Positions 3,001 through 61,500 of a stretch of DNA of 64,000 nucleotides are shown here, piece by piece. Made by a program: the position numbers and the translations under genes. The notes under the pieces are model-generated. The model searched no databases. It saw only the letters and a list, made by a program, of their open reading frames with translations, and had not been told where the DNA came from. The stretch is from Artocarpus heterophyllus. Taxonomy: Eukaryota; Streptophyta; Magnoliopsida; Rosales; Moraceae. Within the stretch, counting starts at the first letter, position 1, and every line of letters starts with the position of its first letter. The DNA is taken from positions 22,937,899-23,001,898 of the forward strand of contig CM046348.1 in assembly GCA_025403435.1 (NCBI GenBank), read 5' to 3'.

Positions 3001-3078
3001 CTACCTTATTTGTAAGTAAGTTTAAGTTTATGATGATGTTTAAGTTAAGTGACGGCCACGTAAGGGCGGGTCGTTACA
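1..3078 (+). mobile_element. Long gypsy-type LTR, 3' part (left end outside window)
   Basis: The segment ends in GGGTCGTTACA, the usual 3' end of plant Ty3/gypsy LTRs. It is homologous in inverted orientation to about 39194-42685: both carry the GCGACACTTGATGGGCAGTG-like stretch (about 1990 here, about 40650 there) and the GACGGTGGC-type GC-rich leader. The first 1.3 kb is GC-rich with many short fortuitous reading frames; the last 1.1 kb is AT-rich. No gag-pol is present. No primer site follows position 3078, so this is a solo or broken LTR. Confidence 0.65.
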
Positions 3079-30000: not shown

Positions 30001-30270
30001 TATTTTGCAGAAGTTCAGTCTACCGAACTGTTAAAAGCATATTTTAAAGTTTGTTTTGAAATTTTATTTGAAATATGATTTTTGTTAATTTGGCATTGAT
30101 TAACTATATAAAAAAAAGATTTGAAATATTTGGAATAAAAAAAAATTTGTATGCATGGAGCTTGGGATATGTTAATCAAATTGTGTTTAAATTTAAATGG
30201 TTTATCTTATAAATAATTATAACAAGGATGAAAGTAACGATTATTGTGACGTCCGTAAGGAGGCGTTACA
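27064..30270 (+). repeat. 5' LTR of gypsy element
   Basis: 3207 bp, with TGTAACGCC / GGCGTTACA inverted ends. It has (A+T)-rich tandem TATAT stretches (about 27470-27560), a polypurine block (about 27597-27645) and a putative TATA box at 27705-27716. It is visibly diverged from the 3' LTR by scattered substitutions and small indels. Confidence 0.92.
27705..27716 (+). promoter_or_regulatory. Putative TATA box in 5' LTR
   Basis: CTATAAATATAT, conserved at 35817-35828 in the 3' LTR, and followed about 30 bp later by CTTCATTCTCTAAA pyrimidine-rich sequence. This fits a plant RNA polymerase II start. Confidence 0.55.
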
Positions 30271-30274
30271 GATA

Positions 30275-30286
30275 TGGTATCAGAGT
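30275..30286 (+). other. Primer-binding site, tRNA-iMet
   Basis: TGGTATCAGAGT lies 4 bp after the 5' LTR. It matches the 3' end complement of plant initiator tRNA-Met (canonical TGGTATCAGAGC) except the last base. Confidence 0.85.
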
Positions 30287-30497
30287 GGGTTTCTATGTCC
30301 AATACACACCGCCACACGTCTGTCTAAGTCCTCCAAGTATGTATGTTTTAACTAATTTAATGTTGATGTAAGTTTAACGATAAGTGTAAGATTTAGACAT
30401 ATGGTGATGAATGCCCTAGTACATAATTTAGTAGTGAATCCTATCTCATAAATTGAAAGATTATCCTTAAGCTCCTAATTCTTTTAAGAAATCAAAG

Positions 30498-33400
30498 ATG
30501 AACGGCCATAGAAGAATTCATACTCGTGCTCAAACCAATGAAAGACTGATGTCGACGATTGCCGAATTGCAAAGGCAACTCGAAGAGCAAAGAAGAGTGA
30601 TTGAGGAACTAAGAGCTAATGGTCTAGGTGGTGAAAGACCAGGTAATGACATACCACCTTCTCCTCTTCCTCAGCCTCGAAGAAAAGAAGTCCCAGCTCC
30701 TGTTCCAATACTAAGACTTGCCTATCAAGAACCATTATTAGTTAGATGGAAGAGGGTTAAGCCAAATGACTTTGAAGGTTCTAAGGATCCTCTGGTAGCT
30801 CAAGGATGGCTGAAGACAATTGAAGCCACTCTGAAGCTTATGGGTTTCACTGATAATGAGAAAGTTCTCTGTGCTTCGTACTGCCTCACCATGGAGGCTC
30901 GAATCTAGTGGGATGGAATCGAACAAAGCAAGAACATAGATGAAATGACATGGGCAGATTTCATTCATGAATTCAACATGAAGTTCTTCCACATGAACAT
31001 TACTCGAAAGCATTACGATGAGTTCGAGAACCTACGCCAAGGAGACATGTCAGTTACCGATGTGGTGACTAAATTTGACTAATTGGCACGACTTTGCCTA
31101 GGGATGGTTATTGATGATAGTGAAAGGGTCAGAAGATTGATCAGAGTCCTCAGGCCAGAGATTGCAGCAATTGTTGATGGGGCCAGTCCTCCTAGAAACC
31201 AGGAACAGGTTGTCTTAAGAGCGCGACGAGCTGAATTCCACATGTCAAAGCTAAGAAGAAACCATCCTCAATTAGGTCAACCAGTGAACAATGCAAACTC
31301 CCAGAATAGACCTCAATGCAGAAACAACAGCAGTAGTAGCCAAAATGGAGAAATAACAAGAGGAAAAGTAACTTTCAGAACCAGCAGGGCCAAGGTAATA
31401 AGAAGCAAAATAGTGGGCAGTATAACAACAATAATAGGCAGATGCAACCATGTGCCAATTGTGGAAAGAAGCATCCGGGTGAATGCCGTCGTGGAACAAA
31501 CCAATGTTTCATTTGCGGACATGAGGGTCATTTTTTCAGGAACTGCCCTACCCAGTTCAATGCTCAAGGTCAGCAAAGAGCCCCTTATGCTCAACTTCAC
31601 CATATACAAGCTACCTTGGAGGGACCACTCATAAGCCAAGGAAGACTTGAAGCTCCTCCTACCAATGCTCGCATTTATGCAATGACGAAGGAACAAGTGG
31701 CAGATGAAACCTCCAATGTTGTCACAGGTCAGATCTCAATACTTTCTTTTAATGCACATGCTCTTTTTGACACGGGTGCTACACATTCATTTATATCCTC
31801 TTCGTTTGCTAAGAAGTTAGAAGAACATCAAGAGCCTATGAGACAAGGGTTCACTACGACACTACCCTTAGGGAAGTGATTATGTCTACGCATTATTTAC
31901 GTACGGTTCCTTTATGGATTTCTGAAAGAGAACTTTTTGTCGATCTTATTATAATCGATATGTATGACTATGATATGATTCTTGGGATGGACTTCTTGAG
32001 TAAGTATAATGCTTCTATCGAGTGCCGAAAACGAAAAGTGATTTTCCATCTAGAAGGTGAAGAAAGATTGGTGCATGTGGGTGAGTCAAGAAAGAAGCCA
32101 ATCATGTTTCTGTCACTTTGAAGGCAAGAAAGTTATTAGCAAGTGGTTGTATAGGTTATTTGGCTAACATTGTAGATAAAAGTCAAGAAGAAAAGACAAA
32201 GATTGAAGATGTTTTAGTAGTTCAAGAATTTCTAGAGGTATTTCTAGAGGACCTGTCAAGCTTGCCTCTAGATAGAGAAATCGAATTTGAGATTGAGCTT
32301 GCTCCTGGTACTGATCCGATTTCTAAGGCATCGTATAGAATGGCTCCAGCCGAATTGAAAGAGTTGCATTCCAACTAAAGGAACTTCTTGATAAGGGTTT
32401 CATCCGACCTAGTCATTCACCATGGGGAGCACCGGTTTTGTTTGTGAAGAAATAGGATAGTTCTATGAGGCTCTGCATCGACTATAGAGAGTTGAATAAG
32501 GTAATGATCAAGAACAAGTACCTGTTAATTGATGAGTTATTTGATCAACTTAAGGGTGCATCTATGTTCTCAAAGATTGATCTGCGGTCGGGATATCACC
32601 AGTTGAAGATAAAAGAAGGAGACATCCCTAAGATAGCCTTTAGATTGAGGTATGGTCACTATGAATTCATGGTTATACCTTTCGGTCTAACAAATGCACT
32701 TGCAGCTTTTATGGACCTGATGAATCGGGTGTTCAAGGATTACCTCGATAAATTTGTCATAGTGTTTATCGGTGATATTCTTGTTCATTCGAAGAGTCAG
32801 GAAGAGCATGCTGTGCACCTGAGGATTGTGCTAGAGACTTTGAAGAGACATCAATTATACGCAAAGTTCTCTAAGTGTGAGTTTTGGCTCGACTGTGTGT
32901 CTTTCTTAGGGCATGTTGTATCAAAGGATGGAATAATGGTGGATCCTGCTAAGGTTGAGGCTGTTCTTAATTGGAAGCAACCTAAGAATGTAAGTGAGAT
33001 AAGAAGCTTCTTGGGATTAGCTGGTTACTATCGAAAGTTTGTGCAGGATTTCTCCAAGATAGCATCACCTCTCACGAATTTAACTTGGAAGGGGAAGAAG
33101 TTTGAGTGGAATGATGAGTGTGAAAAGAGCTTCCAAGAATTAAAGAAAAGGCTGACTACAGCTCCAGTTTTGGCTATTCTGGAAGGGAGTGAAGGATTTG
33201 TCATTAATAGTGATGCTTCTAAAATGGCCCTAGGTGCAGTATTGATGTAGAATGATAGGGTGATTGCTTATGCCTCGAGACAACTGAAGGATTATGAGAA
33301 GAATTACCCTACTCATGACCTCGAGTTGGTAGCCGTTGTTTTTGCATTGAAGATTTGGAGACATTACTTGTATAGAGTTCAATGTAAGATCTACACCGAC

Positions 33401-35104
33401 CATCAAAGTTTAAAGTACTTTTTCACTCAGAAGGATCTAAACATGAGGCAATGGAGATGGTTAGAACTAGTGAAAGATTATGATTGTAAAATCTTGTACC
33501 ATCCAGGAAAGGCAAATCGGGTGGCTGATGCTCTGAGTAGGAAGACTGTTGTAACACTAATGTCATTGCAAGCGATATCCCAGCCTTTAAGGAAAGAAAT
33601 TGTAGACTTCGGTTTGGAACTTATATCAGGACAGCTTTCAGCATTGACTCTTGCTCCATCATTATCTGAAGAGATTCAAGGCAAACAAGATAAAGATACA
33701 AGTCTAGCAAGGATCAAGCGGGAAATCAGGGAAGGAAGATGTGAGGAGTTTCGAGTTGCTGATGATGGAACTCTATATCTTAAGAACCGCTTATGTGTTC
33801 CTAATGTCGATGATTTAAGGGAAAGGATCTTAGTTGAAATCCATAATACTCCTTATTCAATCCATCTAGGTGCGATAAAGATGTACAATGATTTAAGGGA
33901 CTGCGATTGGTGGTTCAGAATGAAGCATGATGTTACTAAATATGTAAGAAAATGTTTGACTTGTTAGCAAGTTAAAGCTGAACACCAAAGACCTGGACGC
34001 AATTTGCAGTCAATTCAGATACCTGAGTGAAAGTGGGAGGAGATTGCGATGGATTTTATCACAGGTTTGCCAAGAACTACGAATGGATATGATGCCATTT
34101 GGGTTGTTATTGATAGATTGACAAAGACGGCACACTTCATTCCCATTAAGATCAGCTACTCTATGGAGTGATTGGCTGAACTTTATGTCAAGGAGATAGT
34201 GAGGCTTCATGGAATTCTTAAGTCTATAATCTCTGATCATGACGGTAGGTTCACTTCTAATTTTTGGAAAAGCATACAGACCACGATGGGTATGAAGTTG
34301 CACTTTAGCACAGCTTTTCACCCTTAAACTGATGGTCAAATGGAGAGAACAAATTTGATTTTAGAGGATATGCTCCGTGCTTGTACCTTAGATTACAAGA
34401 CAAGTTGGTATAAGATGTTACCGTTAGCAGAATTTGCTTATAACAACAGCTATCAGGCAACAATTGGAATGGCACCTTATGAGGCTTTATATGGGCGAAA
34501 GTGTAGATCGCCCATATGTTGGCATGAAGCTGGACAAAAGAAGATGATGGAAAGTGATGATAGCGAAAAGACATATTTTATCAACAAGATGACAGAGATG
34601 GTAAAGTTAATACGTAAAAGAATCGAGACTGCTCATTGTCGACAGAAGAGTTATGTCGATAAAAGGAGAAGACCCTTGGAATTCACTGTAGGCGATTTTG
34701 TGTTCTTAAAGGTTGCACCAATGAAGGGAGTTATGAGGTTTGGGAAGAAAGGCAAGCTGAGCTCGAGGTTTGTTGGACCCTATGAAATTGTGAAGCGGAT
34801 AGGAAAGGTGGCTTATCAGTTGAGTTTGCCATCGGAGATGTCATCTATCCATGATGTGTTTCATGTCTCGATGCTTAACAAGCATGTCTCGGACCCTACG
34901 CACGTGATCAAACCACAGGTGATTGAGATAAGAGAAGATCTTAGCTATAAAGAGAAGCCGGTCGAGATTTTAGATCAAAAAACTAAAATCTTAAGGAATA
35001 AAGAAATTCCCTTGGTCAAAGTTTTGTGGCGAAATCACCACGTAGAAAAAGCTATGTGGGAACGTGAGGATGATATGAAGGCCAAGTATCCGCAATTGTT
35101 TTGA
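30498..35104 (+). pseudogene. Degenerate gypsy gag-pol polyprotein
   Basis: Gag starts at 30498 with a coiled-coil-like N-terminus. Two zinc knuckles follow in the frame starting at 31442 (CX2CX3HX3C and CX2CX4HX4C). Then come protease (ALFDTGATHSFIS, about 31767), reverse transcriptase ([11 protein letters not shown], 32465 on), RNase H (about 33150-33540), the HHCC integrase end (about 33830-33964), a DDE core with stops (34000-34460), and a C-terminal chromodomain-like tail ending at 35104. Inactivating changes: in-frame stops near 30906, 31080, 32453, 33248, 33965, 34028, 34169 and 34325; frameshifts near 31400, 31870, 32120 and 32360. The RT box usually read as FIDDIL reads FIGDIL, losing one catalytic aspartate. 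Most stops are C-to-T or G-to-A type. It cannot make an active polymerase. Confidence 0.92.
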
Positions 35105-35126
35105 GTTTCAACGATAAAACTCTTAT

Positions 35127-35140
35127 AAGGTGGGGACAGT
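35127..35140 (+). other. Polypurine tract of gypsy element
   Basis: AAGGTGGGGACAGT lies directly before the 3' LTR. This is the purine-rich primer position for plus-strand DNA synthesis in LTR elements. Confidence 0.75.
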
Positions 35141-38100
35141 TGTAACGCCTGCCTTTTTCTTCTATGGACACTTATGTTAATTTAACGTTGGAATGTGATA
35201 TTTTAGTACTATTATTATTTATGTTAAGTAAATTAATATTTTATTTAGTAATGTCGCAGGTGACGGCCATGTGGGATCGATGTGTTTGAGATGTTCATGT
35301 CAAAAGTGATAATAAGCTTAAAGTATTTATTTTTTTTTGGGTTTTAATTTGCCCTAAATTTATAATCTTTATAATGTCCTAGAGCTATGTATGCCCCAAA
35401 GTTAAATTCTTGATGATGACATGAATGTTGTTACATATATTTTTTTATTTTTTTATAATATTAATGATACCATGATAATTACATGTGTATTAATATTTTT
35501 GGGTTATAATGTAAATATTATTGTCGTGTATAAATAATTATATATTTAATTATATTATATTATATTATATAAACCCTTAACGTTTATAATATAATATGTT
35601 TATATTATATATTATATTATATTATACTCTATTATATTATATATATATATATATATTAATATAACTTATGTTTAAGAAGGAAACGACAACCTGCCGTGAA
35701 AAAAAAGAAAAGAAAAGAAGAAAGAGCAAAAGAAAAAAAAAAAAGAAGAAGAGAAGTTGAATTAGATTAGGATTAGGGTTTTCTATACTTATCTAATCCC
35801 TTCTCCCTCATAAACCTATAAATATATCTCTAAGCCACCAAAGCCTTCATTCTCTAAATTTCTAGCTAAAGAAAATTCTCTCTCTTTAAAATTTTCTTAG
35901 ACACTCTCTCTTTCTTCTCCACTTTTTCTTCCCTTCTCTCCCCTATTTTTTTGCAAATAATTGAATGAAATATTGGGTTTTGGCTTAGATAAATTCAAGA
36001 GAATTGAGAAGAATCGTTTTAGAGGTAAGAAACTTATTCTAGACTATTGCTGAAATTTTGTTTCCTTTGTAATCCGACCCTCATAACTTTGTCTACAAAT
36101 TTCTGTTTGCTCTGAAATTTTAATATGATGTTTATGTATGTGTTATGTGATATTATTCAAAATTTCACATTATTTAGAATTTTCTATGCTGAGATATTAA
36201 ATTTTCATTCTCTACCACTCATGACCAAATTGTTGCTGATCGATATTTTGTACAAAAGTATAGTCCATGTTTAAGTGGCAAACGACCTTTGATTTGAACG
36301 AAATTCTACAGAGATATTCATGCATATGTTAAGTTATGATCTGAAAATTTTCATGGTTATTTGATGAATATTTTATGAGTTCTTGAATTTTCTTTAAGAT
36401 AGGTTTATATGGTTGTCTATTCAGTGAATTCGGTACTTCTTGTTTATGTGACTTATTTATATAGCTAAACAAATTTATTTGCTAATGACACCTTTTGTGG
36501 TGCTGTAAATATATGTTATTAGGTTGACATAAAAATTATAGGGTTAAAGTAATTTTATTTTAATTATTGGAATTTTATGATCATGTGTTGCTCACTACTT
36601 TAGGTAATTAGAGTTTGTTTCGTCTTTGAATTCTAATGCATGTTTTGAATTGTTGAAAATTTATTTGAATCTAATTTTTGGATATGTTATAGTTTTTGTG
36701 TATTGTGTTAGTATTAGAATTATTATTATCATCACAAAGATTCTTTTATTGTATGTATTTCATGTCAATTGGTATTTAATTTTTTTGATGCCTTAAGTCT
36801 GCTTTTCATACAAACATCTAACAACCATCGTGTTTTAGTAATTTTTGATTCTGTATTGCTCTGTTTATATTTTTATTATATTTTTCTCAAATACTAGACA
36901 TCTTAATCTTTTGTTTGGCTTTTGAATCGCTTTAATCAGAGTTTTCATTAAATAGTTATGATTTTTCGAAATTGACCTTGACAGCTCTATAGTTTTACAC
37001 AAACCCGAAATTTAGATTGAATTTCAAGGACTTATTCTTCATGTAAATTATTGCCAAAATATGCCTTTGATATATCAAATTCTTTTTTTTTTCAGTCTAG
37101 TTTCTAATGCCACTAGTTTTGAATGATTTGGACTTAAGATGAAATTATTATGAATTTTTAAGTGAATAAAGGTCATTCTACCTACTTTTGGGAATTATGC
37201 CCTAGGTTCATAAATTGTGATTTTGTGCTTTTTGATATTATTACATGATAAGGTGATGTTTAACGAGATGTGTGTATATTGCTAATAGTATTGCTAGTGA
37301 CTTATGGTTAATATGAATGTTTGACATGAACACTCTAAAAGACGAGCACACCGAGAACCGCAGCAACGTCACCCAAGTTAAGGTTTAGTAAGCAAGCAAG
37401 ACAAGTAAGTACATTCTCACCTGCAACATGATAAAAGTTTATGAAAAGGTTTTGAGAACAGGTTTTATGATGATTCTTAAGTTTGTTTTTACATATGGTC
37501 TTTCTTATGAAAACTCTTGTTGCAACAAGAAAGTTTAACGAATTTTTCAATGATAAGGTATGTTAAAAGTATATCTATATATATGTATCACTTAATTAAG
37601 TGTTGCACACCCTATGTTTATGTTTATGTTTATGTTTATAATGTCCCGAAGGTTAGACTTGTCATGTTTGGTTTGAGATTAGCTACCCCTCTCCTCTCAT
37701 GACGGCACGCCTATGATGATGATGTTTATGGTGCAACACTTAGGCTCCAAAGATAAAATAAATGAAGTTTTTAATATGATAATAATAATGAAAGATATGT
37801 TCTATATGAAACTGTGCCAAGTGCATTATTATGTTAATGATGATTATGATTATGATGTTTCATAAAGGTGTTCATAAAATGTTTTATGTTGTGAGATAGG
37901 AAAGTGTACTTACTAAGCTTTTGCTTACTTAGTTTATAATCATATTGTAGATAGGTAAGAGGACCATGGAATAGTTGGAGGGCGAAGACGGGCGTGTGGG
38001 CTATGAATGATTGATTGGAAATGGAAGAACGCCAAGAAAGAATAATTTTTTTAAAACTATATTTTTATTTCTTTGAATGCTTAAATTTCTGCACTATTAA

Positions 38101-38402
38101 GTAAAAAGACTTGTTTTACATTTATTTTGATTTTGCATAAGTTTAGTCTATCGAATTGTTAAAAGCATATTTTAAAGTTTGTTTTGAAATTTTATTTGAA
38201 ATATGATTTTTGTTAATTTGCAATTGATAAACTATATAAAAAAAAAGATTTGAAATATTTGGAATATAAAAAAAAATTGTACTGCATAAATCTTGGGATA
38301 TGCTTATCAAATTGTGTTTAAATTTAAATGGTTTATCTTATAAATAATTATAACAAGGATGAAAGTAACGATTATTGTGACGTTCGTAAGGGGGGCGTTA
38401 CA
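35141..38402 (+). repeat. 3' LTR of gypsy element
   Basis: 3262 bp, TGTAACGCC...GGCGTTACA, followed by target copy CTATC. It is longer than the 5' LTR, mainly by TA-repeat expansion near 35600-35660 and (ATGTTT)n near 37615-37640. Short reading frames in it are leader or AT-rich noise. Confidence 0.92.
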
Positions 38403-47094: not shown

Positions 47095-49061
47095 TGTGAC
47101 ACCCGTTATTCTCCTAACGGGTATTGAGGTAATTAAATTAATTTTTAATGTATAAAAAAAAATTGCTTCATTTAAATTTATTTTATAATATTTATTTTTA
47201 TCTATTTTTAAATTTTCTAAAATTCTCCTATATTTATTTAGTATGATTACTAAAAAGCCTTAGAACTTCTAATAAATCTCAAAAATGTCATATTGGCATT
47301 ATGTGTGTTAAAGTCTTTAGATGAGACATAAGGATATCTTTTCCAACTACTCTTGACCCTCATTTTCTTTATTTCCTCCGTGACATGCTTCAACATGTCT
47401 CCTCTATAATTGTTTCCATCACTTCTTTTCAAAGACTTCATCTTTTCTTCCTTTCTCTTCCACGGTTCCCACACTCTTCTTCTCATTTCTTTGCTAAAGC
47501 AAAATACTTAGAGAACTTCTTCAAGGCAGCCATAAAAATCAGCCACCATCACCTCCATTTGAGCAAGAATTTCAGTCATACCGAAGTAAAGGAACCTGTT
47601 TTGAAGCCATTTCAAGCTTCCAACTAACCATAATCCGAGGTTAGAATCTTATGAACAAATTTAGTCTTTCATTTATAAATTTTCTTTTATACTAAAGGAT
47701 TATTCAAATTTGCGTTCTTAAACCTAAGTATATGTTTGTTGCTATTTTGGAGCATATGTATGAAGTCTAAGTGTATATGCCCTAGACAGAAAATTTATAT
47801 TGTTAAACTTTATAATACCTCTATGGGCAGTGGTTATTTCTTGAAATTCTAAGATTAAATTAAAATAAATTTTATGAATGTAGTTGTATGTTGTGCTTTA
47901 GTTTTAATTGTCCTTATGCACGCCTTAGGATCAAGGGAGTATGGAGCTAACGTTAATTGATTCCAGGATTAAGAGACTGTTGATAAGCTTAAAAGGTAGG
48001 GATTCTATTACTCATCTTTTGTGAGGTTTTTATAGAATTAAAATTGATTGTTTTGCCGCAATATATATATATCTATGTTGAACTGATATTATATGTGTAT
48101 CACATATGAAACTATGACATGGACTCGTCTTGTATTGTACGGCGAGGAACATAATGAATTGACACATGTTATAAATTGAGAAGCATGGTTAGGAAAATTA
48201 ACTCTATTAATAATGATTTAATATAGAGAAATTGTGAGACATGAAAAGGGCGACGGTTACGTCCTTGGGCATGAATACCCTAAAAGGTAAAGTAGGGGGA
48301 AGGCGATGACGCTTCCTTGGGTTGAAAGTCCCAGAACACACTGTACAGGAATCGATTTGGTGAGGACTCGGGGCTTGATGTCCCCTCACCGGAACACCCT
48401 TGGAATGTTTATAGGGTGATCAAGTGCGCCCATTTGGGTTTCGATGAGTTGAGTGATACTCAATTTAACATGGATACCTAGGAACAATGATGATTGGTAA
48501 TATTTGTATAAATGTGTAATTATGACACTTGGTAATGATTAACTACGGTATCCATAAGATGTGATCATAATAAACCTCATAATCTGAAATATGATGTGAC
48601 TTACTAACCATGCAGATTTTAATGTGGTAATGATAGAGGTGAGTAATGGCTTTCTCTACTGAGCATAGTGTTGCTCATACCCTTATGTTTATATCTTTTC
48701 AGGACTCACTAAGTGTGAGGTGGCTACGAGAAATATAGTTGAGGAAGTGATGTAACTATATTACATTGGGACTGCTTCAATTGTTGAGAATGTTCTTCAT
48801 GATAATGTAAGCATCAATTGTTACTTTCTGTGACTGTATTACAATGTGTTGAGGGATAAAATGATGATGACAACAGTTTATATTATTAAATTTAAGGTGC
48901 TACATTAAAACTGTGGTTTATTTATCGTTTATATTTTTTATTTTTGAGTTGAGAGTTTTCATTTAAGTCCCGGGCAAATTTTATTTTTAAGGTTTTACTT
49001 TTATTATTTATTTTTATTTTATCTCATTAAAAACTGTTAACCCCCATATAGGGGCGTTACA
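47095..49061 (+). repeat. 5' LTR of LOG-carrying element
   Basis: 1967 bp, TGTGACACCCGTTATTC...ATAGGGGCGTTACA. A short frame at 47385-47627 (present in both LTRs) lies in the leader. Its FAKAK-containing segment resembles the leader of the LTR at 55708-58522, so the families are related. It is probably leader, not a gene. Confidence 0.95.
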
Positions 49062-49068
49062 GAATTTT

Positions 49069-49080
49069 TGGTATCAGAGC
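49069..49080 (+). other. Primer-binding site, tRNA-iMet, of LOG-carrying element
   Basis: TGGTATCAGAGC, a perfect match to the canonical plant initiator tRNA-Met site, 7 bp after the 5' LTR. It is intact, so the element RNA should be a substrate for reverse transcription. Confidence 0.92.
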
Positions 49081-50558
49081 CTAGGTTCGGTTAACCTAGG
49101 GAGTGTAGCACCACTTTAAAAAAAAAAAAAAAAATATTTTTGAGATGGTTTTGAAGCTGAATTTTCATTGTCATCATCAAAATGAACCTTCACATTGATT
49201 TATACAGTCTAGAAGGATGTAACATGGAAAGGCCATAGAATGAAAATATCAATAGTTATATGAGTACAATAATTTTATAGAAGGAAAGTATTAATAGTTA
49301 TAAGGGAATGATAATTATATGAAATGAGTTTATAAGTAGAATGCTTATGAGAGATTCGTATAATATTTGGATCTATAAGCATATTTAATTCGTATAAACG
49401 ATGAGAAATTCGTGTAGATACGAGGATTTAAGAGCCTTTTGTCTCGTGAAAAACAATAAGAAATATAAGGCTTGATTTATTGATTTTAAAGTTTGACATA
49501 GATATGCCAAATTTTTCGTAATTGATTCAAACCTAAGTAATGATTATGTGTGGATTCGATGGAGCACATAAGTGTCAATGTCTTTTCTTAAAAGTTCTAT
49601 ATATTCGAGAAATATGATATAAGTTGGGAATCATGGTATTGAATCTTGAGAGAGATAAATGTTAGACTTTTGGTCTGTTGAGACTGTGTAAAGTCTAGAA
49701 TGCATGAATCTCAAAATTGGAATATTTTGTTACGTACATTGTATTTAAGTGTATCAGTGAATCTTTTGGTTACCTAAGGTTTTGTTATATGAGGAAATTG
49801 TATATTGTATAAGTAGAATTGTGGGGATTGTAGATGTTCATAAGTAGTAACATCTAGTGTCTTTGTTCATTGATATGGTCTACGTTGGAAGACGTAAATC
49901 GTATTGATTTCAAGGTTAGTCACATTCTAAACCCTTGGTAGCAATGATGATGAATCCATTGATAGATGTTGAGTATTAGGAATAACATATGGGTGTATGC
50001 ATTGTTCAATAAGGTTTTGATTAAAACAAAATTATTTGAGTTGCTGGAAGATTATGTTGTTATGAAATGATTTTAAATATCATTCAGGAAGATCCTTGTT
50101 GTCGTTAAATTAGATTTGTTGTTCATAATTAACTTTATCTATAGTGGGCTTTAAATTGGGTTTAAGATTTATACAAATTGGTTTTCAATTTTATGTTTGT
50201 TATTTAACTTGTTCTAAATGTGTTAAGGCCCGAAACAACCTGACCATTTTCAACTAAGAACATTTGGGCCTAGTTTAAATCCTAAATCAGTTTGATTCAC
50301 ACTGTCTCTCCCACGTGGTCTCTATACGTGTCATATACAGTGGTTTAATTAATGTTTACAAATACGGTTACTGTGCATAGGAGCTTATTTCTCCGAGTTC
50401 ACTTTTTCTCTCTTAATTTGTTATTTTCTCTCTAAATCGCAAATCCTCTTCTTTTTCATTAAAAATTCTTCTTTTTCTCTAAAAGAAGAAGGAATTCTAG
50501 GATTCTGCAATTTACTATCTTAATTTTTCCTTTCTATTTACTCTTCTTTCATCTCATC
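49081..50558 (+). other. Non-coding leader of LOG-carrying element
   Basis: About 1.5 kb between the primer site and the first cargo ORF. No reading frame with a recognisable domain and no trace of Gag was found. It may hold the packaging signal. The last 150 bp before the ATG at 50559 are CT-rich (TTTTTCTCTAAAAGAAG...), like a plant 5' UTR. Confidence 0.6.
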
Positions 50559-51080
50559 ATGGACCCAAAGTACCAACACATGAGAAAGTATTTCCCATCA
50601 CTCTCCCAAAAGATCCTTAGAAAGAAATACAAGGCTAGAATTACTCGGTTGTGGATTCTTATGCATTTTGGCATCCCTTGTGATGTGAGAATGTTGATAG
50701 AGGGGAAAATCCGTCCGAGTGACTTTAGTCAAGATGTCGGTTTACCAGGAACAGGTACCAGTCGTAGTGCAATGAAAAGAAGAGCCCGTGCCATCGTAGT
50801 CGCTTGTAACAAATGTGGAAGACAAAATTGTAACGGTAAATGTACTTCACCTAGTTATATGTCAACGAATAGAGAGGATAAAATAAGGTTTTGTAGGGAT
50901 GGACTTTCAAAGGAGAACTTGGATAGCATCCATCCTCCTCTCCACGGTCACCCTAGTGGATATGTTCAAGGAGCTATTTTTAAACTCTGGCCTAAATTTT
51001 ATACAGAAAGACAACGCCTCAGGAATATGGTATTTCTAGATCCTGTTTGTCAAGCCATAAGAAAACTGGATGGGGAATAA
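50559..51080 (+). CDS. Basic Cys-cluster protein resembling carla-like virus nucleic-acid-binding protein
   Basis: 173 residues, intact, starting at an ATG after a CT-rich leader. Features in order: basic N-terminus (residues 18-30); a hydrophobic LWILMHFGIPCDVRMLIEGK segment; GTGTSRSAMKRRARAI, a Gly/Ser then Arg-rich stretch (64-79); a Cys cluster CX2CX4CX3C (C83, C86, C91, C95); and a C-terminus with W143 and several aromatic residues. The arrangement of helix, GTS-x-KRRAR motif and immediately following zinc finger resembles the small cysteine-rich proteins encoded by carlaviruses and relatives. Those bind nucleic acid, and some suppress RNA silencing or act in the nucleus. The finger spacing differs from the classical one. 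It sits first in the element with the LOG-like ORF 643 bp downstream. Viral origin is inference; an alternative is an unrelated host zinc-finger fragment. Confidence 0.55.
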   Translation: MDPKYQHMRKYFPSLSQKILRKKYKARITRLWILMHFGIPCDVRMLIEGKIRPSDFSQDVGLPGTGTSRSAMKRRARAIVVACNKCGRQNCNGKCTSPSYMSTNREDKIRFCRDGLSKENLDSIHPPLHGHPSGYVQGAIFKLWPKFYTERQRLRNMVFLDPVCQAIRKLDGE

Positions 51081-51723
51081 GTCATCGCTCTATAAAGGTT
51101 ATTTAGTCTTTACTTATTTGAAGCAGTTTTAGCTGATGTTCAACAGTTTGTGTTTTTCTTTTACTCAGAATATTTGCTTTTGTGTTTGAAATAATTGTGA
51201 TTATTAGATTGATACAGTAAGTGTTAATATCTTATTTAATTTATGATTTTCTTAAATATATATATAATAAAATATATTATCTTATCAGACACGTCACATA
51301 CGGTACAGTAATATGTTTGAATTTTGAAAAGCTTATCCAGATATTTCAAGATTTGTGTCTCAAATTTCAAAAGTTCTACAGTATTTGTCGTTTATATTAA
51401 ATTTCTAGACTTGGTGTATATTTGTCAAAAAGTCTACAGTTGTGTCATGAGGGTCTTCTGTCGAATTGTTCTCAATTGTCAAAAGTTATACAATTAGAGT
51501 CTAATCTTTTTCAAAAAGTGAATCAGATTTTCTGTAAACTATCAATCACCTTATCTTACTTTCTTATCCGCACAAGATTTTGTTTAAATCTTTGGATTAC
51601 CTTTTCATTACCTACTCGTCTATCTCTTTAGCCCTTTTTGTATATTTCTCATCTTTAAAATCTCATGTAGAACCCGAAGTCTAAGTGGAGCAGACATTAA
51701 GCAACCACTTCTATAAACCAAAT
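51081..51723 (+). other. Spacer between the two cargo ORFs
   Basis: AT-rich and non-coding. A short frame (51422-51631) has no recognisable domain. The last 60 bp upstream of the LOG-like ATG include an in-frame GTG at 51685 that I do not take as the start. How the second ORF is translated (own promoter, splicing or reinitiation) is not shown by the sequence. Confidence 0.5.
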
Positions 51724-52374
51724 ATGTCTACCTCCCAGTCCACGAAGAAAATAAAGAATGTCTGTGTCTTTTGTGGTTCCAGCCTTGGAAAAGATAAAGC
51801 TTATTTAGAAGCTGCAAATCACTTAGGGCAAGTCCTAGCACACAAGAAGATTAACATAATCTATGGGGGTGGTAGTATAAAAATGATGGTAAATATGGCA
51901 CTAGCAGCTAGGTCTAGCGACGCTAATGATGTAAGAATTTGGCCTCATATTCCAGTTGAAGGAAACCTTTGTAAGGAAGCCATAGGTAAGGGAGAAGGAG
52001 TCAGGAGTATCCCTAAAAATTTTAAAGACATAATCTATAATTCCGATGCTTTTATAGCATTACCTGGTGGTCTAGGTACTCTTGAGGAAATATTTATAGT
52101 TGCTTGTGGGCAATTGTTGGGCTTTTATTCCAAACCTTTGGGACTGCTGAACGTAAAGGGTTTTTATGACGGTCTTTTGAAATTTCTAGATTACGCTGTG
52201 GAAGAAAACATCACTACAGAATCGGAGAGACAAATCTTTGTCACTGCTTCAACAGCTGAGGAATTGATAGATAAAATGCAAATCATACATCCAGAATCCG
52301 ACACTGCAACATCCAAGCTTGAATGGGAAAGGGAAAGCCGGGAGCGGCCAATTGATTTGAATCTCCATCTGTAA
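51724..52374 (+). CDS. LONELY GUY-like cytokinin-riboside-phosphate phosphoribohydrolase, intronless
   Basis: LOG enzymes release active free-base cytokinins from cytokinin riboside 5'-monophosphates in the cytosol. This 216-residue ORF has the family's usual length and order: VCVFCGSSLGKDKAYLEAA (13-31), NIIYGGGS (44-51), DAFIALPGGLGTLEE (108-122; PGGxGTxxE motif with Glu121/122), KPLGLLNVKGFYDGLLKFLD (137-156). Plant LOG genes have several introns; here the ORF is uninterrupted, as expected for a gene copied through RNA. It resembles a divergent plant LOG-like subgroup beginning CVFCGSSLGKDK. Oddities: the block normally carrying the Arg-Lys pair (RKAxM) before DAF is replaced by PKNFKDII (97-104), and GLMG after YGGGS is KMMV. 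Activity may therefore be altered or lost, although the frame is clean. The start is the first ATG; an upstream GTG at 51685 is unlikely. Confidence 0.85.
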   Translation: MSTSQSTKKIKNVCVFCGSSLGKDKAYLEAANHLGQVLAHKKINIIYGGGSIKMMVNMALAARSSDANDVRIWPHIPVEGNLCKEAIGKGEGVRSIPKNFKDIIYNSDAFIALPGGLGTLEEIFIVACGQLLGFYSKPLGLLNVKGFYDGLLKFLDYAVEENITTESERQIFVTASTAEELIDKMQIIHPESDTATSKLEWERESRERPIDLNLHL

Positions 52375-53313
52375 TCTTTTTGTTTTATCTTTGGCATGTA
52401 GGCATGTGTGTCCGTATTTCGTGTGTTACGAATAACCGTTTGCCTTGTATTCTGTGTTTCTTGTGGTACGTCGTTGTTTAATCTTTTAGATTCATTGAGC
52501 CTAATGCCGGGATGGCTGGATACGGAGTACTTGATGCTCTCGAAACGCATCCTTCTTAAGGTCCGATCTTTTGTTTATCGATGTTTTTGTATCCTCTAAG
52601 CATGCATGATATAGATAGCTTGTATACGGAGTGCCTTGTACTCTCGAAACGTATCCGTATTATGTTTGTAATGTGTAATATTCTGTTAATATTATGTGGA
52701 AGTACCAGAGTCAGTTATGGGGATATTCCATATGAAATATGAGTATATTATTTGGGTTGAATGTTTGTGTCATGAGGATAGCTGTTTAATGAAAAATATG
52801 TCGGGTATGTTTGCAACCAGAGATTCCGTTTAATATCTCTATGAATAAGTTTAATGTATAGTTTTGAATAAAAGTGTTTGTGATATATGTTTTATGATTA
52901 TGTTTTAGTTTATTAGTTGAGGTATGAAATCAAATATATTTGACTTTTCCTTACTCAAAAAGGAAAAGGAACCTAAAGATGAAGTATATAAAATTTCTCT
53001 GGCAATCTCCTTAAATGTGATTGTAAATCACAGTCCATGGACAATGAAGGACTGAAATCATGATATGGTCAATATGTATGCCTGATCAGATTCTTAGACT
53101 ATTATATGGTGTTATAAGTTGAAACTCGTCAGAAATACTCTCATTGAGGGATTTAGGAGTAAGATTTATTATGCAAGTAAATGAGTGGAGATACGATAAC
53201 TTAAATTTGGAGGACAAACAACATTAACGGTTTAGACTCGGAATTGGAATCATAATGGAATTAAAATTTTTACTAGTATTGCTAGAATTGAAATTTCGAG
53301 GACGAAATTTCTT
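52375..53313 (+). other. 3' non-coding internal region of LOG-carrying element
   Basis: No coding region. A phrase of about 35 bp (TATACGGAGT...CTCTCGAAACG(C/T)ATCC) is repeated about 105 bp apart near 52520 and 52625. The last 50 bp are the conserved gypsy-type end (ATTTCGAGGACGAAATTTC). Confidence 0.6.
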
Positions 53314-53327
53314 TAAGGGGGTAGAGC
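53314..53327 (+). other. Polypurine tract of LOG-carrying element
   Basis: AAGGGGGTAGAGC-type purine run immediately before the TGTGACACCC start of the 3' LTR; intact. Confidence 0.85.
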
Positions 53328-55294
53328 TGTGACACCCGTTATTCTCCTAACGGGTATTGAGGTAATTAAATTAATTTTTAATGTATAAAAAAAAATTGCT
53401 TCATTTAAATTTATTTTATAATATTTATTTTTATCTATTTTTAAATTTTCTAAAATTCTCCTATATTTATTTAGTATGATTACTAAAAAGCCTTAGAACT
53501 TCTAATAAATCTCAAAAATGTCATATTGGCATTATGTGTGTTAAAGTCTTTAGATGAGACATAAGGATATCTTTTCCAACTACTCTTGACCCTCATTTTC
53601 TTTATTTCCTCCGTGACATGCTTCAACATGTCTCCTCTATAATTGTTTCCATCACTTCTTTTCAAAGACTTCATCTTTTCTTCCTTTCTCTTCCACGGTT
53701 CCCACACTCTTCTTCTCATTTCTTTGCTAAAGCAAAATACTTAGAGAACTTCTTCAAGGCAGCCATAAAAATCAGCCACCATCACCTCCATTTGAGCAAG
53801 AATTTCAGTCATACCGAAGTAAAGGAACCTGTTTTGAAGCCATTTCAAGCTTCCAACTAACCATAATCCGAGGTTAGAATCTTATGAACAAATTTAGTCT
53901 TTCATTTATAAATTTTCTTTTATACTAAAGGATTATTCAAATTTGCGTTCTTAAACCTAAGTATATGTTTGTTGCTATTTTGGAGCATATGTATGAAGTC
54001 TAAGTGTATATGCCCTAGACAGAAAATTTATATTGTTAAACTTTATAATACCTCTATGGGCAGTGGTTATTTCTTGAAATTCTAAGATTAAATTAAAATA
54101 AATTTTATGAATGTAGTTGTATGTTGTGCTTTAGTTTTAATTGTCCTTATGCACGCCTTAGGATCAAGGGAGTATGGAGCTAACGTTAATTGATTCCAGG
54201 ATTAAGAGACTGTTGATAAGCTTAAAAGGTAGGGATTCTATTACTCATCTTTTGTGAGGTTTTTATAGAATTAAAATTGATTGTTTTGCCGCAATATATA
54301 TATATCTATGTTGAACTGATATTATATGTGTATCACATATGAAACTATGACATGGACTCGTCTTGTATTGTACGGCGAGGAACATAATGAATTGACACAT
54401 GTTATAAATTGAGAAGCATGGTTAGGAAAATTAACTCTATTAATAATGATTTAATATAGAGAAATTGTGAGACATGAAAAGGGCGACGGTTACGTCCTTG
54501 GGCATGAATACCCTAAAAGGTAAAGTAGGGGGAAGGCGATGACGCTTCCTTGGGTTGAAAGTCCCAGAACACACTGTACAGGAATCGATTTGGTGAGGAC
54601 TCGGGGCTTGATGTCCCCTCACCGGAACACCCTTGGAATGTTTATAGGGTGATCAAGTGCGCCCATTTGGGTTTCGATGAGTTGAGTGATACTCAATTTA
54701 ACATGGATACCTAGGAACAATGATGATTGGTAATATTTGTATAAATGTGTAATTATGACACTTGGTAATGATTAACTACGGTATCCATAAGATGTGATCA
54801 TAATAAACCTCATAATCTGAAATATGATGTGACTTACTAACCATGCAGATTTTAATGTGGTAATGATAGAGGTGAGTAATGGCTTTCTCTACTGAGCATA
54901 GTGTTGCTCATACCCTTATGTTTATATCTTTTCAGGACTCACTAAGTGTGAGGTGGCTACGAGAAATATAGTTGAGGAAGTGATGTAACTATATTACATT
55001 GGGACTGCTTCAATTGTTGAGAATGTTCTTCATGATAATGTAAGCATCAATTGTTACTTTCTGTGACTGTATTACAATGTGTTGAGGGATAAAATGATGA
55101 TGACAACAGTTTATATTATTAAATTTAAGGTGCTACATTAAAACTGTGGTTTATTTATCGTTTATATTTTTTATTTTTGAGTTGAGAGTTTTCATTTAAG
55201 TCCCGGGTAAATTTTATTTTTAAGGTTTTACTTTTATTATTTATTTTTATTTTATCTCATTAAAAACTGTTAACCCCCATATAGGGGCGTTACA
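53328..55294 (+). repeat. 3' LTR of LOG-carrying element
   Basis: 1967 bp, the same length as the 5' LTR. It read as identical apart from T at 55208 against C at 48975. It is followed by target copy GATAA. Confidence 0.95.
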
Positions 55295-55707: not shown

Positions 55708-58522
55708 TGTAACATTCAAAAATTTTAATTACAATTTATTATATGTAAATTTGATCAGTTAATGTGCATAATTAATTTTGAGGTGTAAAAATTTATTTAT
55801 TTTTGCATAAATAACATTCATTTACATGCTTAAGATGTATTTTCATCACAATGTTAATTTTTGAAATTATACGCACTATTTACATTATTCGTACTTTTAT
55901 TCCCGCATTTAACTTTTATTTCAAAATCATCCCCACACTGAACTTTTATTACAAAAATGCCCCAAAACCTACTCTCCCTCACTCTACATGTGCAGCCCCT
56001 CCCCAAAACCCACACATACTAGAAATTTTCTGATTTCCATGCCTAGAGACCCTCCCCCACTCACTATTTTGAGACTCCAACCCACTACTTGGAGCACCTC
56101 ACACACTCTACACTCACCTCCCCTCTCTCCCACGCTTCCCACTCCCTCTTCCTCTAATTTTGCTAAAGCAAAACAATCAGTAAAACATCCCAAAGTAGCC
56201 AAGGAACCCAGCCACCGCCATCCCCCTTTGAAGCAAAAATCTCAGCCAAGAGAAGCTAAGAAAATAGCCAACCAGAAGCAGAAAAACACCCACAAAGAGA
56301 CCCAAAAATACCAAAGAACGCTGTTTCATTTCTTGTCCACAAACCACCAAGAACCTTACCAAAAACATGGCCCAAACTCAGCCAAAATCACCAAGAAGCA
56401 CATCTTAAACATTCAACCAAAAACCAGCAAAAACAGCCACCTACAAGGCCAGCCAACTTCAAGGATTCAAGCTTGGTTTTCAATCCGAAAATATGGTGTT
56501 TTTCAAAGGAGTTTTGAAGTAGGTTTTTCTTAATCTAAAATTGGTTTTTAGTATGTGTTTTCTTCAAGTTTAAAGCATGATGTTCGTGTTTAAAATTCAT
56601 GAAAATTTCTAGGAATGTTAACATGCATATTGATTATTTATGAACAAAAACTTGAGTCTTGAGCTAAAACCAGTATCCAACCTTCATTTTCTTTCGACAA
56701 CAATGTTAGAAACATGTTAGGAATGTTTAAAACTGGTTTCCATAGCTTTATGATTAATGCTTAAAACTTTTGAGCTCGAAGAGCAAACTTAAGCATGTTT
56801 TCATCTTAATGGTTTGATGATGATTTTGATACAAAAATTCATAGGAATATGTTTGCTATGAGTAAAGAATTCTTACTACATATTTTGGAATGATTTTGGG
56901 ATTTTGTATAGTGATAATATGATTTGGTTTAAAGAAACTTTGTATTCTAGAAACTTAGTAATACCTCAATAAGCAGTGACATTTTCTTGAATTTCTGGGA
57001 TTAAATGAAAATGATTTTTATAGATTGGTTTATATATTTAAAAAGTAGACATTCTAAGCTTTCCAACGAGCTATCATGAGCCTAAATCGGAGTTGTACTT
57101 TATTTTCTATGAATTTCTCAAGTTTTGGTTGGAAACTAACAAATCTGCCTGAGGAAGGCAAAATTGGGTTCAGTGGAGGAGCGGTCGACCGAGCCCTATG
57201 TAATGAGGTCGACCAGGCACTGTAGCATCAACTACTACCTTCTCCAGCGAGCCGAGCAATGCCTCCAGTTCGGTTCCTTCATGTTCCATCATGTTTAAAC
57301 ATTCTTAAAGCCCTTGTTTTAATGTTCTAAAGTTGTAGAAGACAATTTATGTTTCATGAACATTTTTAAGGCACCAAGTAGCACATTAAGGATTGCTTTA
57401 TGCATAATACGCAATTATGGTTTCTGTTGTCTTTTATTTTGATTCCTCACTGACCATGTTGGGAAAACCATTAAGGTTGGCAGCGTTGGAGCATACGTTG
57501 TGTGTGTGTAATTAGTGGAAACTAAGGGTAATCTTAGATGCTCTGCTAAAGAAGTAGGATTTCTAGTCTCTTTCTTGATAACCATGTTTTGAATAATATT
57601 GTTGGCCATATTGTTAAACTTTATGAGATGAGCATGTTTATTACAAAGTTGTTTATGAATGTGTTTTGCATATTGCTACAAGTTTACGAAATGTATATGA
57701 TATGTAAATATAAGCAATTTCATATTTTGATGAATGGATTTGAGAATTTTGATTTAGACTTGAAATAAGAAATTCTGAGCATATTGAGGAAATTCAAACG
57801 CCACCGAGGACAAATGGATCCCGGATGGAAGGTTTTGTTGGTAGCTAGAGAGACGGCAGGCCCCTAGGTCTTCTGCTCATTTGTGTGTTTTTAAATTAAC
57901 CCCTTCAGGTGGTGTTAAATTCAGTACCGAGTAGACTGTGAGCATGTAGCTCAGAGGCAAAGTTGGGCCCCAAGTGGAAGACTTTCATTTTACAGTTATT
58001 TTCCTTTATATTTACCAAGGCGTGTAGAACCTTAATTCTTGCTATTTCTCTTCTCTTGGACTTTACTCTTGGACTATGGTTGATGTCATTTGTATCGCAC
58101 TTATTTAAATTTCATGTTGTATGTATCAAACGTGGGATTGTATACTAATCTCGAACTGATGTTAGAGGCGTTTTTCCTAAATGGTTATGTTTTGAGGTTT
58201 CTTTGAAAATACTATTCTCCAATAAATTCTAAAATATTCGGTAAAGGTATTAGACAGCCTAAAATGAGTAGACTTAAAATTATATGCTCTAAGGGCAAAA
58301 TAGTTATTTTATACAAATAAGCGGAAGTTGAATCAAACGTTCTCACTTATCCTTTTATTTTTTGGAGATTGGTTTAGAAAAATAATTAAACCATTTTTAA
58401 CTAATTCTTATTTGTAATTTGATTTCAAGTTTTAAAAAAAATATATGATACATTTCACTTAATTATTTTTCTAAAACTAAGCCTCCACGCCATATCTCAT
58501 TTTTAGGTCATGACATGTCACA
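55708..58522 (+). mobile_element. Gypsy-type LTR (probably solo)
   Basis: It begins TGTAACATTC and ends about GACATGTCACA. It has a pyrimidine/proline-codon-rich leader (about 55930-56500) containing TTTTGCTAAAGCAAAA. That motif is shared with the LTR of the LOG-carrying element (about 47490-47503), so the two are distant relatives. A GTCGACC short-motif pair lies at about 57184-57225. The frame at 55988-56533 is leader, not a credible gene. No target duplication is seen at these ends. Confidence 0.55.
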
Positions 58523-58577: not shown

Positions 58578-61500
58578 TCAATAAATTGTGATCCTTGATC
58601 TGCACCAGAGTACAAAAAGCAAAGCCAAAGCAGTAGACTTGCAAAGGGTTGACAACGGAATGCCATATTTCCCTTTCCCAAAGAGCCCTTTCAGGATTGG
58701 CCACAAGCATAACACCAACCACACGCTGCAAAAAACTTCCAAAATGCCTGATCCCTGCCCACCACGAGCTTGCGGTTGTATCCCCAAAACGACCATAGCC
58801 AACGCCATCAACTGGACCAGCAAAAGCGTTGTGACGGGCACGAAAATGGGGGACTCGTCGAAGGTGAATCTGCCGGCATCAGAGTCCATGTCATTGGAGC
58901 CACTGGTACTTGAAGTAGATTGGTCCTTTTTGGTGACTTCAAACACTGTCTCTGAAATCCCCAAAAGCTTTAGTACCACACTGACTAGTCCAAGAACCCA
59001 AGCACTCATTGAAGTTACTCTCCCCATTTTCTGATTATTCCACCATGCTTGGATGGACTGACCGGTGGCAAAATACTCTGATAGTGTGTAGAGGTTGTAG
59101 ATGACAAAGAGCGCTATTGATATGTAGAAAGCTGGTTCTTGCCTCTACATTCATAATAAATTGAGAGAAAAAGAATATAAAGTACGTTGGCTTGATATAG
59201 TATGCTATGTTAACATTAATTTGTAGTGATATATTTCTGACCGGACGCCTAACTCTAATTTTATTTTTTATGTTAATTTATGTGGTCAATAAGTTGTTAT
59301 CTTTTTATTGGTAAATTTGGTCATTCTATGGCGTCTTCATAGCACCAGTGATGAGCCACATATCTATCACAAGTTTTATAACTTCAACGGTTAAAGTTTA
59401 AGAGTATATAAATTCAAATTTACATGTTATTGTGTTTTCTTTATAATTCGCAAGTCTATCGTAATTTATACAAATCCACTATTCCAAATTTGCAATTCCA
59501 ATATGAAATGTGCATTTTATTATATTTCTAGAGCTATAAAAGTCTCTTATTAATTGATGTAACAATCTTTTAAACATCTAAAAAATAAAAGAATAATGAC
59601 AACTCACTTACTACATCGGTCGACGCATTAAAATTGATATTAGAGTTGGTTTCCTGTTAGTTAGCATTATTCTATATATATATATATATTGTGAAACTAT
59701 AAAAAAGTGCTGAAAATTAAATGTATTGAAATCTAACCTTGGGCAAAAAATGAGAGTTGGTGATGATAGAATATGCAAGTAGAGCAGAATAGCACAACTC
59801 AGGAGCAGAGCGTAATACCCAAGATTGGACCCACAAGTAGGCCAAGCACTGTCTGAGTTGAAGCTTGCCAAATATGGTGAAAAATAAGGGGCAATTTTTG
59901 CTGAAAAGGACTTCTAGAAGCCCTGTCGCCCACCTTCTTTGTTGTATCATAGCAGTTGGTCCACTGGTTGGTGCACATCCTAGAAAGCCCGGCGGATTCG
60001 GCCAGCAAAGGACAGATCTCCAGCCTTTCTTATGGATAATGAGTCCTGTGTTAAAGTCTTCCGTCATTGATCCATACATGAAACCAATCTGAGTCCAACC
60101 AGCCCAAAAAAAGACTTGGTAAGTGTGAAGAAAATAAGAAACCATCCAAAAAACTTGTCTTTCATATAATTTATTTGTATAAGAAGGGTTACAAGTAATA
60201 ATCAATATAATTTTTCTACAATAAAATTATGGCATTGTTTTAGTTGTATCTTAAACATTATTTGTACCCTGTAACATTTTTCTTGGAATGCCAATCGGTG
60301 CCAGTCTAATTGATAAAGATGGGGTGAATTAAAAGGGAGATCTCAAGCTCGAATTCGGAAACCAACAAACATCGTATTGAAAAAATAAATATTTTTTCTT
60401 TTGCTAAAATTATTTGACACGAACCTTCTTACCCCAATGAGTACCATTCTCGTACTCACAATCTGCAACTTTGTGAGCAGCCTCAACAGAGTTCTCAAGA
60501 CTCTTTGCCATTTCCGCCTTCTCTCCTTTCAAAGCACTGGCAGCTGATGCCACAAACTCCTCTGAGTTTCCAAAACTTTGGACCAAGTACTCATGATTAA
60601 TATCCTTGGCTAACTTTCCTGGCGCAGTAAATAAAAGGGCAAAATAATTAGGTCCTCGAAATGAAGAAAATTAAACTGAGAAATATTCGTTTGGAAAATA
60701 AGTTTGAACCAAAAGTTTGGGTTCAATTTTTAAAGATTGAGCGATTCAAATTTTATAAGAAAAAATATTTTATTTACTTTAGTTGCACTGTAACAACATT
60801 GATTCGAACTCATTTTCCAGACAAACTCGTACAATATTAGACGTACAATAGAAGTGAAAGTCGTTTACCACTAGCAATATAGATCAAATTGGTAGAATCT
60901 CTCTGACTAATTTCTATGTCTTCCGGCGATATGCCGTATATGACTTTTCGTCTGTGGAAGCATCCTGTTCCCGAGTAACATGGCCCTTGAAGTCCCGCTA
61001 TTCCTCTCCCCATATACTTTTGATTGAAACGACAAGGTTTATTTGTATTCATAAGTTGCAAGTTTAATCAATAAAAATTGATTATCTTTCAAAAGAAGTA
61101 CATATATAATTAATTTCTCTTCATTAATAATTAGCAGTTTATTACTTAAAAATCAAGTTTCTTTCATTTTTTTGGGTAAAAAAATGATCAGATATTTGTC
61201 GTGCATATAGTTTCTCTTTTCATTTAGAAGATGTAATTATTCAAACTATTTGATTGGGATATATGGGCAAATGACATGACTAACCAAAATTTTGTCGAAT
61301 CAAAAAAATGACTCCTTAAAAAATGGTCAATTAGTTTTATTGATTGAGGAATTGACTTTGTGTTGTTGATTAACCAATATCAATAATACAATTTATCAGT
61401 GAGATTAACCTACTGGTTAATGGATCATTGATTGAATCTAATTGACCAATGCATCAACTATTTTTATGATAATATGTCATTTTCTTAAGGCAAAAAATTT

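Follow-up and report, generated by a model that had tools for sequence, protein, structure and literature searches.

Introduction

Extra open reading frames (ORFs) are common in plant retrotransposons, and their function is an open question. Among the non-autonomous long terminal repeat (LTR) retrotransposons, LARD and TRIM elements have no coding capacity and TR-GAG elements keep gag, their LTRs being mobilised in trans. Athila-like elements with similarity to LOGL4 were reportedly first described by Steinbauerova in 2011. Here we analyse a 64,000-nucleotide stretch of the Artocarpus heterophyllus genome (assembly GCA_025403435.1, contig CM046348.1, positions 22,937,899 to 23,001,898), referred to throughout as the window, and within it an LTR retrotransposon whose internal region encodes a nucleic-acid-binding protein (NABP)-like protein (ORF1) and a LOG-like protein (ORF2), with no gag-pol detected.

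Among the closest described systems, LOG-type (YgdH) domains are recorded in consensus Ty3/gypsy elements from two species of Citrus (PMC9289625); Populus trichocarpa Ty3/gypsy elements likewise have a YgdH domain when no filter is applied. In sunflower, a 5' extra ORF is conserved in 500 of 523 Tekay group-2 elements, and a role in RNA silencing has been proposed for it (excerpts of PMC11728184). According to parts of PMC6317226, most chromoviruses prime with tRNA-Met and non-chromovirus Ty3/gypsy elements do not; the survey of extra ORFs in that study set a minimum length of 250 codons, and therefore ORF1 would escape it. A literature search excluding most subscription journals returned no paper joining an NABP to a retrotransposon, and a term search in the available portions of PMC7264820 and PMC11963269 gave nothing on LOG or NABP.

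Results

Structure of the element

The element (Table 1) has the paired LTRs with TG...CA ends, target-site duplication (TSD), primer-binding site (PBS) and polypurine tract of an LTR retrotransposon, and its two LTRs differ only at position 48975. We take the tRNA behind the PBS to be tRNA-Met. The 4266-bp internal region contains two long plus-strand frames, of 205 and 229 codons from stop to stop; the third-longest frame (127 codons) lies on the minus strand. The gag-pol with protease, reverse transcriptase, RNase H and integrase that defines an autonomous Ty3/gypsy element was not found: tblastn with eight stop-free segments of the gypsy element in the same window, together with the pol ORF of contig L001 (described below), gave no match in the internal region better than E 0.14, and a missed gag-pol was rejected on this basis. 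The same approach found no reverse transcriptase, integrase or chromodomain of the element's own for phylogenetic placement, and an Rfam search gave no match. The LTRs, the GATAA TSD, the iMet-type primer site, the purine end, the two intact ORFs and the lack of gag-pol had all been recorded in the first-pass annotation and are confirmed.

The window contains no further copy of the element, only an LTR-like stretch of 126 bases (74%) and a 29-base match. LTR remnants lie just downstream of the element, at 56124-56245 (74% identical to the window LTR) and at 56933-57149 (82% identical to the LTR of another copy, L046).

Table 1. Coordinates of the element and its features in the window.
Feature	Position	Strand	Basis or state
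Left TSD, GATAA	47090..47094	n/a	sequence
5' LTR, 1967 bp, TGTGACACCC...GTTACA	47095..49061	+	LTR-LTR comparison
PBS TGGTATCAGAGCC, presumed tRNA-Met type, 7 bases past the 5' LTR end	49069..49081	+	
ORF1, 173 aa, NABP-like	50559..51080	+	intact
ORF1 Cys cluster, C83-x2-C86-x4-C91-x3-C95, after a basic stretch	50805..50843	+	
ORF2, 216 aa counted from ATG, LOG-like	51724..52374	+	intact
ORF2 Asn99-Phe100 codons, at the LOG catalytic Arg and Lys positions	52018..52023	+	alignment to 2a33
ORF2 PGGLGTLEE, the LOG PGGxGTxxE motif, Glu122 retained	52063..52089	+	
ORF2 C-terminal LNLHL (LxLxL, EAR-like)	52357..52371	+	
Polypurine tract AAGGGGGTAGAGC	53315..53327	+	
3' LTR, 1967 bp, one mismatch to the 5' LTR	53328..55294	+	
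Right TSD, GATAA	55295..55299	n/a	

The family in the host genome

The host assembly searched comprises 985 Mb in 334 contigs, and each scored set consists of the best 150 matches to its query, that is, of the most similar copies by construction. With the ORF1 protein, the best 150 of 5815 first-look candidates were all full length, stop-free and 98-100% identical. The best 150 of 6120 candidates for the ORF2 protein were likewise full length and stop-free, and 149 of them shared one tied score; three loci from this tied set (L054-L056) differ from the window ORF2 protein by one residue. The family therefore numbers at least 150 near-identical copies, and may run to thousands if the uncontrolled first-look totals (5815 and 6120) are a guide; neither these totals nor that for a query described below (5265) are counts of confirmed copies. 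A nucleotide search of the host genome with the spacer between ORF1 and ORF2 gave no match, the window's own copy included, probably because very common words are skipped.

Twenty copies of 8651 bp each were fetched from the best 150 ORF1 matches. ORF2 lies at the expected place in 19 of them, on many contigs, and the twentieth (L043) is split by a nested insertion. In the four copies with both ends in range, perfect 5-bp TSDs were found in every case, all different (CAACC, AACTA, CATGC and AGTGT). Three fetched copies match the window LTR over its whole length, nine match both of its ends with a different middle, and eight match it only from position 835 onward, so that several LTR subfamilies share the internal region. 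Divergence between the paired LTRs, within the fetched part, was 0.0005-0.026 in 19 copies, which points to recent insertions. Starting from ORF2 instead, ORF1 was at its predicted place in all eight loci read (L054-L061, of 149 other places) and uninterrupted in seven. Among 33 copies picked by ORF1, ORF1 was uninterrupted in all and ORF2 was gap-free and stop-free in 26. The element is thus real, recent and abundant, and its first description as a non-autonomous element with two intact genes other than gag-pol is borne out; TSD-flanked copies elsewhere in the genome, whose lack would have counted against that description, do exist.

Selection on the two ORFs

Nonsynonymous and synonymous changes were counted with a transition/transversion weight taken from spacer variants. 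For ORF1, the 33 ORF1-picked copies gave 12 nonsynonymous and 34 synonymous changes (p 5e-11), in a sample whose choice is biased against amino-acid changes. The eight copies picked by ORF2 gave 12 and 13, respectively, at an expected nonsynonymous fraction of 0.73 (ratio 0.34, p 0.007), and 11 and 13 when compared with their own majority (p 0.0045). Constraint on ORF1 is real but moderate, in a small sample. For ORF2, variants present in at least two of the 28 gap-free ORF1-picked copies were 13 nonsynonymous and 13 synonymous, at an expected nonsynonymous fraction of 0.72 (ratio 0.39, p 0.014). Changes private to one copy would mostly have arisen after insertion, and shared changes would have passed through transposition. 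Conservation that is clear for ORF1 and weak for ORF2 suggests that the accessory genes help the element to spread. The NABP-like ORF1 is the better supported functional gene of the two; the LOG-like ORF2 product could be an EAR-tailed pseudoenzyme put to a new use, or else a passenger.

ORF1 and its relatives

In the first alignment of the ORF1 family (16 members, including window ORF1 and the near-copy P0001), Carla_C4 (PF01623) was matched by 13 members and Viral_NABP (PF05515) by 11, at E<=0.01. Of 2421 candidates in a profile search, 854 proteins reached E<=0.01; among the 120 listed, the named relatives come from Hibiscus, Xanthoceras, Populus, Acer, Rhamnella and Orobanche and are on chromosome-scale contigs. 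The four cysteines of the cluster are kept in 33 of 33 copies, and the predicted structure is helical, at modest confidence (pLDDT 70, pTM 0.41). No confirmed relative was found in viral contigs in scans with ORF1, A1, A2 and A3.

One relative could be read in its DNA context. The 3330-bp contig L001 (DAIEQH010000041.1, positions 1-3330) is filed under a Candidatus Nomurabacteria metagenome-assembled genome. It carries a 466-aa frame with integrase domains and, about 200 bp further on, a 182-aa NABP that scores 34.2 bits against PF05515 (cut-off 23). L001 is almost certainly plant retrotransposon DNA contaminating a public bacterial genome, and its integrase/pol is presumably Athila/Tat-like, judged by motifs. 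In this single readable context the NABP is an extra ORF carried by a gag-pol element. Searched against the host genome, the L001 NABP gave a best 150 of 5265 candidates that were 51-52% identical; by identity, their places being unread, these matches would fit the window family, and therefore no gag-pol source was found in the host genome. ORF1 looks like an inherited extra ORF rather than a fresh capture, because its family is plant-wide and one relative stands behind an integrase ORF.

ORF2 and its relatives

ORF2 matches PF03641 (E 9e-22), and the closest solved structure is that of AtLOG3 (2a33; E 8e-44). The ORF2 model is weak at residues 94-97 and in the tail (pLDDT 77, pTM 0.78 overall). 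In the AtLOG3 alignment, Asn99 and Phe100 fall on the Arg and Lys of MHxRK, and N99, F100 and E122 are present in 28 of 28 gap-free copies, with the exact PGGLGTLEE in 26 and the DLNLHL tail in all 28. The catalytic residues proposed for CgLOG are Arg99 and Glu122; in this bacterial LOG, changing crucial active-site residues, among which we count Arg99, to alanine nearly abolishes activity (PMC4979012). ORF2 thus has the LOG fold and the PGGxGTxxE motif with its catalytic Glu, and lacks the catalytic Arg. In our reading, it would have ceased to release cytokinin and would act as a binding protein instead.

ORF2 relatives were taken from the best 120 of 5275 candidates; removal of four for length left 116, including P0016 of the same family. 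An LxLxL within the last 14 residues occurs in 86 of these 116, the 30 without a tail including shortened forms, and the five typical LOGs among the relatives (P0129-P0132 and P0135) all lack it. At a fixed distance from PGGxGT, the catalytic Arg is kept in 104 of the 113 readable relatives; Arg and Lys are both kept in just 13 of them. Ahead of the tail, many relatives have a KKRK-like basic stretch, where window ORF2 has SRERP. The ORF2 tail fits LxLxL, the consensus of the EAR motif (PMC6283911 and PMC9956375, in part), and ORF2 could possibly recruit TOPLESS-type corepressors. In a quick LOG tree, with 58 of its 114 inner branches open, window ORF2 has a branch length of 1.2 and an unsure position. 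The listed relatives also include many Populus-type LOG-like clusters (P0019-P0128) with altered MHxRK and LxLxL tails, some named LOG enzymes in public records and others hypothetical; they have the look of a family that has been amplified and is perhaps element-borne. The longest contig listed for the LOG relative P0067 and for the NABP relative P0150 is 8723 bp in both cases, which hints at NABP-LOG linkage in another plant, although the equal lengths may be coincidental.

Lineage of the element

The element has a tRNA-Met-type PBS, unlike Athila/Tat (OTA) elements, which have a non-Met PBS (PMC6317226, in part). The insertion in copy L043 (4588-8651) is a reverse-oriented, chromovirus-type element nested between ORF1 and ORF2, seen within the fetched stretch and without its 5' part. 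Its RNase H, integrase zinc and integrase SH3 domains score above the Pfam cut-offs, its LTR shares 94.4% identity with window LTR positions 778-1589 over a stretch of 820 bp, and the two elements are 83% identical in the purine-tract region. The nested LTR, similar to the window-family LTR over these 820 bp only, has a mosaic look. With a tRNA-Met-type PBS and LTRs related to those of one nested chromovirus-type element, the LTRs, PBS and polypurine tract are of chromovirus type, probably of the Tekay/Del lineage.

Other features of the window

A second gypsy element at 27064-38402 has LTRs of about 3.2 kb (27064-30270 and 35141-38402; 93.5% identical), frames for reverse transcriptase, RNase H and integrase, a tRNA-Met-like primer site and TGTAACGCC ends. 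On the minus strand, a frame at 59717-60205 resembles a cellulose-synthase-like protein, and frames at 24760-25838 resemble a CACTA transposon-associated domain.

Discussion

The explanation we favour, and hold to be reasonably probable, is that the element is a high-copy, recently active, non-autonomous LTR element, one that has no gag-pol, parasitises chromoviruses and carries accessory genes. Because its LTRs, PBS and purine tract are of chromovirus type, chromoviruses with related LTRs would most likely supply gag, reverse transcriptase and integrase in trans. Its sole coding capacity would be a cassette of two accessory genes of the sort carried elsewhere by gag-pol elements. ORF1 would be a Cys-rich (zinc-knuckle-like), nucleic-acid-binding-type protein maintained by purifying selection and acting mainly on the element's own RNA, which it might package or chaperone into partner particles or shield from small-RNA silencing. 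ORF2, with the LOG fold, no catalytic arginine, and a retained nucleotide-site motif and EAR-like tail, would be a binding protein and possibly a corepressor recruiter.

Several observations weigh against this explanation. Window ORF1 by itself stays under both Pfam cut-offs (16.4 of 23 bits for PF05515 and 12.2 of 20.9 for PF01623), and one of the eight ORF2-picked copies (L055) has a stop in ORF1. The partner is drawn from one nested element, whose integrase core (29.5 of 32.6 bits) and chromodomain (20.3 of 25.1) fall below the cut-offs and whose LTR, beyond the 820 bp, matches the window LTR at 80-86% in short stretches near the LTR end or not at all. The basic stretch of ORF2 is degraded, and its EAR tail is possibly inherited without use. 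Selection on ORF2 looks near neutral overall in the 28 gap-free copies (49 nonsynonymous and 26 synonymous changes; ratio 0.73, p 0.12), variants in at least three copies stand at 9 and 8 (p 0.073), those private to one copy at 36 and 13 (ratio 1.07, p 0.64), and seven of the 33 ORF1-picked copies have no clean ORF2 (four gapped, one of these by 3 bases, two stopped and one with the nested insertion).

The ORF2 data bear directly on a passenger reading, in which ORF1 alone matters. The LOG-like gene would have arrived with the cassette and be under neutral decay, and the family would spread from a small number of masters in which ORF2 happens still to be intact. The neutral look of private changes, the damaged copies and the lost catalytic Arg all fit this reading; the synonymous lean of the shared variants, the C-terminal motif kept in 28 of 28 copies and the tied score of 149 of the best 150 matches, albeit the most similar by choice, speak against it, and we regard it as possible though somewhat unlikely. 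The original model was of another kind: an active LOG would raise cytokinin and the NABP would suppress silencing, favouring proliferation and germline access. The LOG fold with its PGGxGTxxE motif and the match of ORF1 relatives to viral NABP families are in its favour. The cytokinin role is doubtful because Asn replaces the catalytic Arg in all 28 gap-free copies, with Phe for the neighbouring Lys, and changes of crucial residues to Ala nearly abolish bacterial LOG activity (PMC4979012, in part); the cytokinin mechanism is unlikely, and the model as a whole very much so.

As to origin, derivation, by simple internal deletion, from a larger autonomous element with gag-pol and both ORFs between the same LTRs would agree with the NABP behind the integrase ORF of L001 and with the LOG-type domains of elements bearing reverse transcriptase (PMC9289625, accessible passages). 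It agrees less well with a tRNA-Met-type PBS, which non-chromoviruses do not use (PMC6317226, in part). The 51-52% host matches to the L001 NABP, places unread, fit the window family and no closer gag-pol type. The pol of L001, moreover, is the one we presume to be Athila/Tat-like. Such a deletion is unlikely. The recent, one-off capture of two cargo genes envisaged at first was rejected: each protein has a large family, well represented in plants, an NABP relative lies downstream of an integrase ORF, and LOG-type domains already occur in Citrus and Populus Ty3/gypsy elements (PMC9289625, in part). That the arrangement is an assembly join, a pair of chance ORFs or a deletion scar, a case the first-pass annotation had kept in view, is practically inconceivable; nothing was found in its favour, the arrangement recurs in 19 of the 20 fetched copies on many contigs, L043 being cut by its nested insertion, and ORF1 is in place at all eight ORF2-picked loci.

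A bolder form of the gag-pol-less parasite, which we find rather doubtful, is that the element won without gag-pol by retaining only helpers, an RNA-virus-type binding protein and a dead LOG serving as a nuclear EAR adaptor. If so, ORF1 would favour its own RNA in partner particles or block silencing, ORF2 would steer host corepressors, and the element would be to retroelements what a satellite virus with accessory genes of its own is to viruses. In this family, with its 150 or more near-identical copies, no proteins are left but those of the extra ORFs; gag-pol therefore does not confound selection on them, and the question of extra-ORF function becomes directly testable. The results also connect a protein family of RNA viruses with elements on the chromosomes of several eudicot orders, and LOG-like proteins that combine the loss of catalysis with an EAR-like tail could be a new class of host-interface protein.

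The window element is best filed among the non-autonomous LTR retrotransposons, as a new variant that carries accessory genes alone. It resembles LARD, TRIM and TR-GAG elements, as generally understood, in its trans-mobilised LTRs, and differs from them in retaining only accessory genes. With Athila/Tat (OTA) elements, which have 3' extra ORFs, the likeness lies in the NABP found 3' of the presumably Athila/Tat-like integrase of L001; unlike them, the window element has a chromovirus-like PBS and LTRs and no pol. ORF1 has the Cys cluster beside a basic stretch of carlavirus-type (PF01623) and PF05515 NABPs, and its relatives match both families, whereas the ORF1 family occurs in multi-copy plant elements and the match spans only the middle of the protein. 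The sunflower Tekay group-2 elements likewise have a conserved accessory protein in many chromovirus-type copies, but their ORF stands beside gag-pol, encodes about 400 aa that are mostly disordered, and is by description unrelated (PMC11728184). The Citrus and Populus Ty3/gypsy elements carry a LOG-type extra gene, as the window element does; their consensus sequences, in the accessible passages, are built around reverse transcriptase (PMC9289625), whereas the window element has no gag-pol and adds an NABP gene, chromovirus-type ends and the loss of the catalytic Arg.

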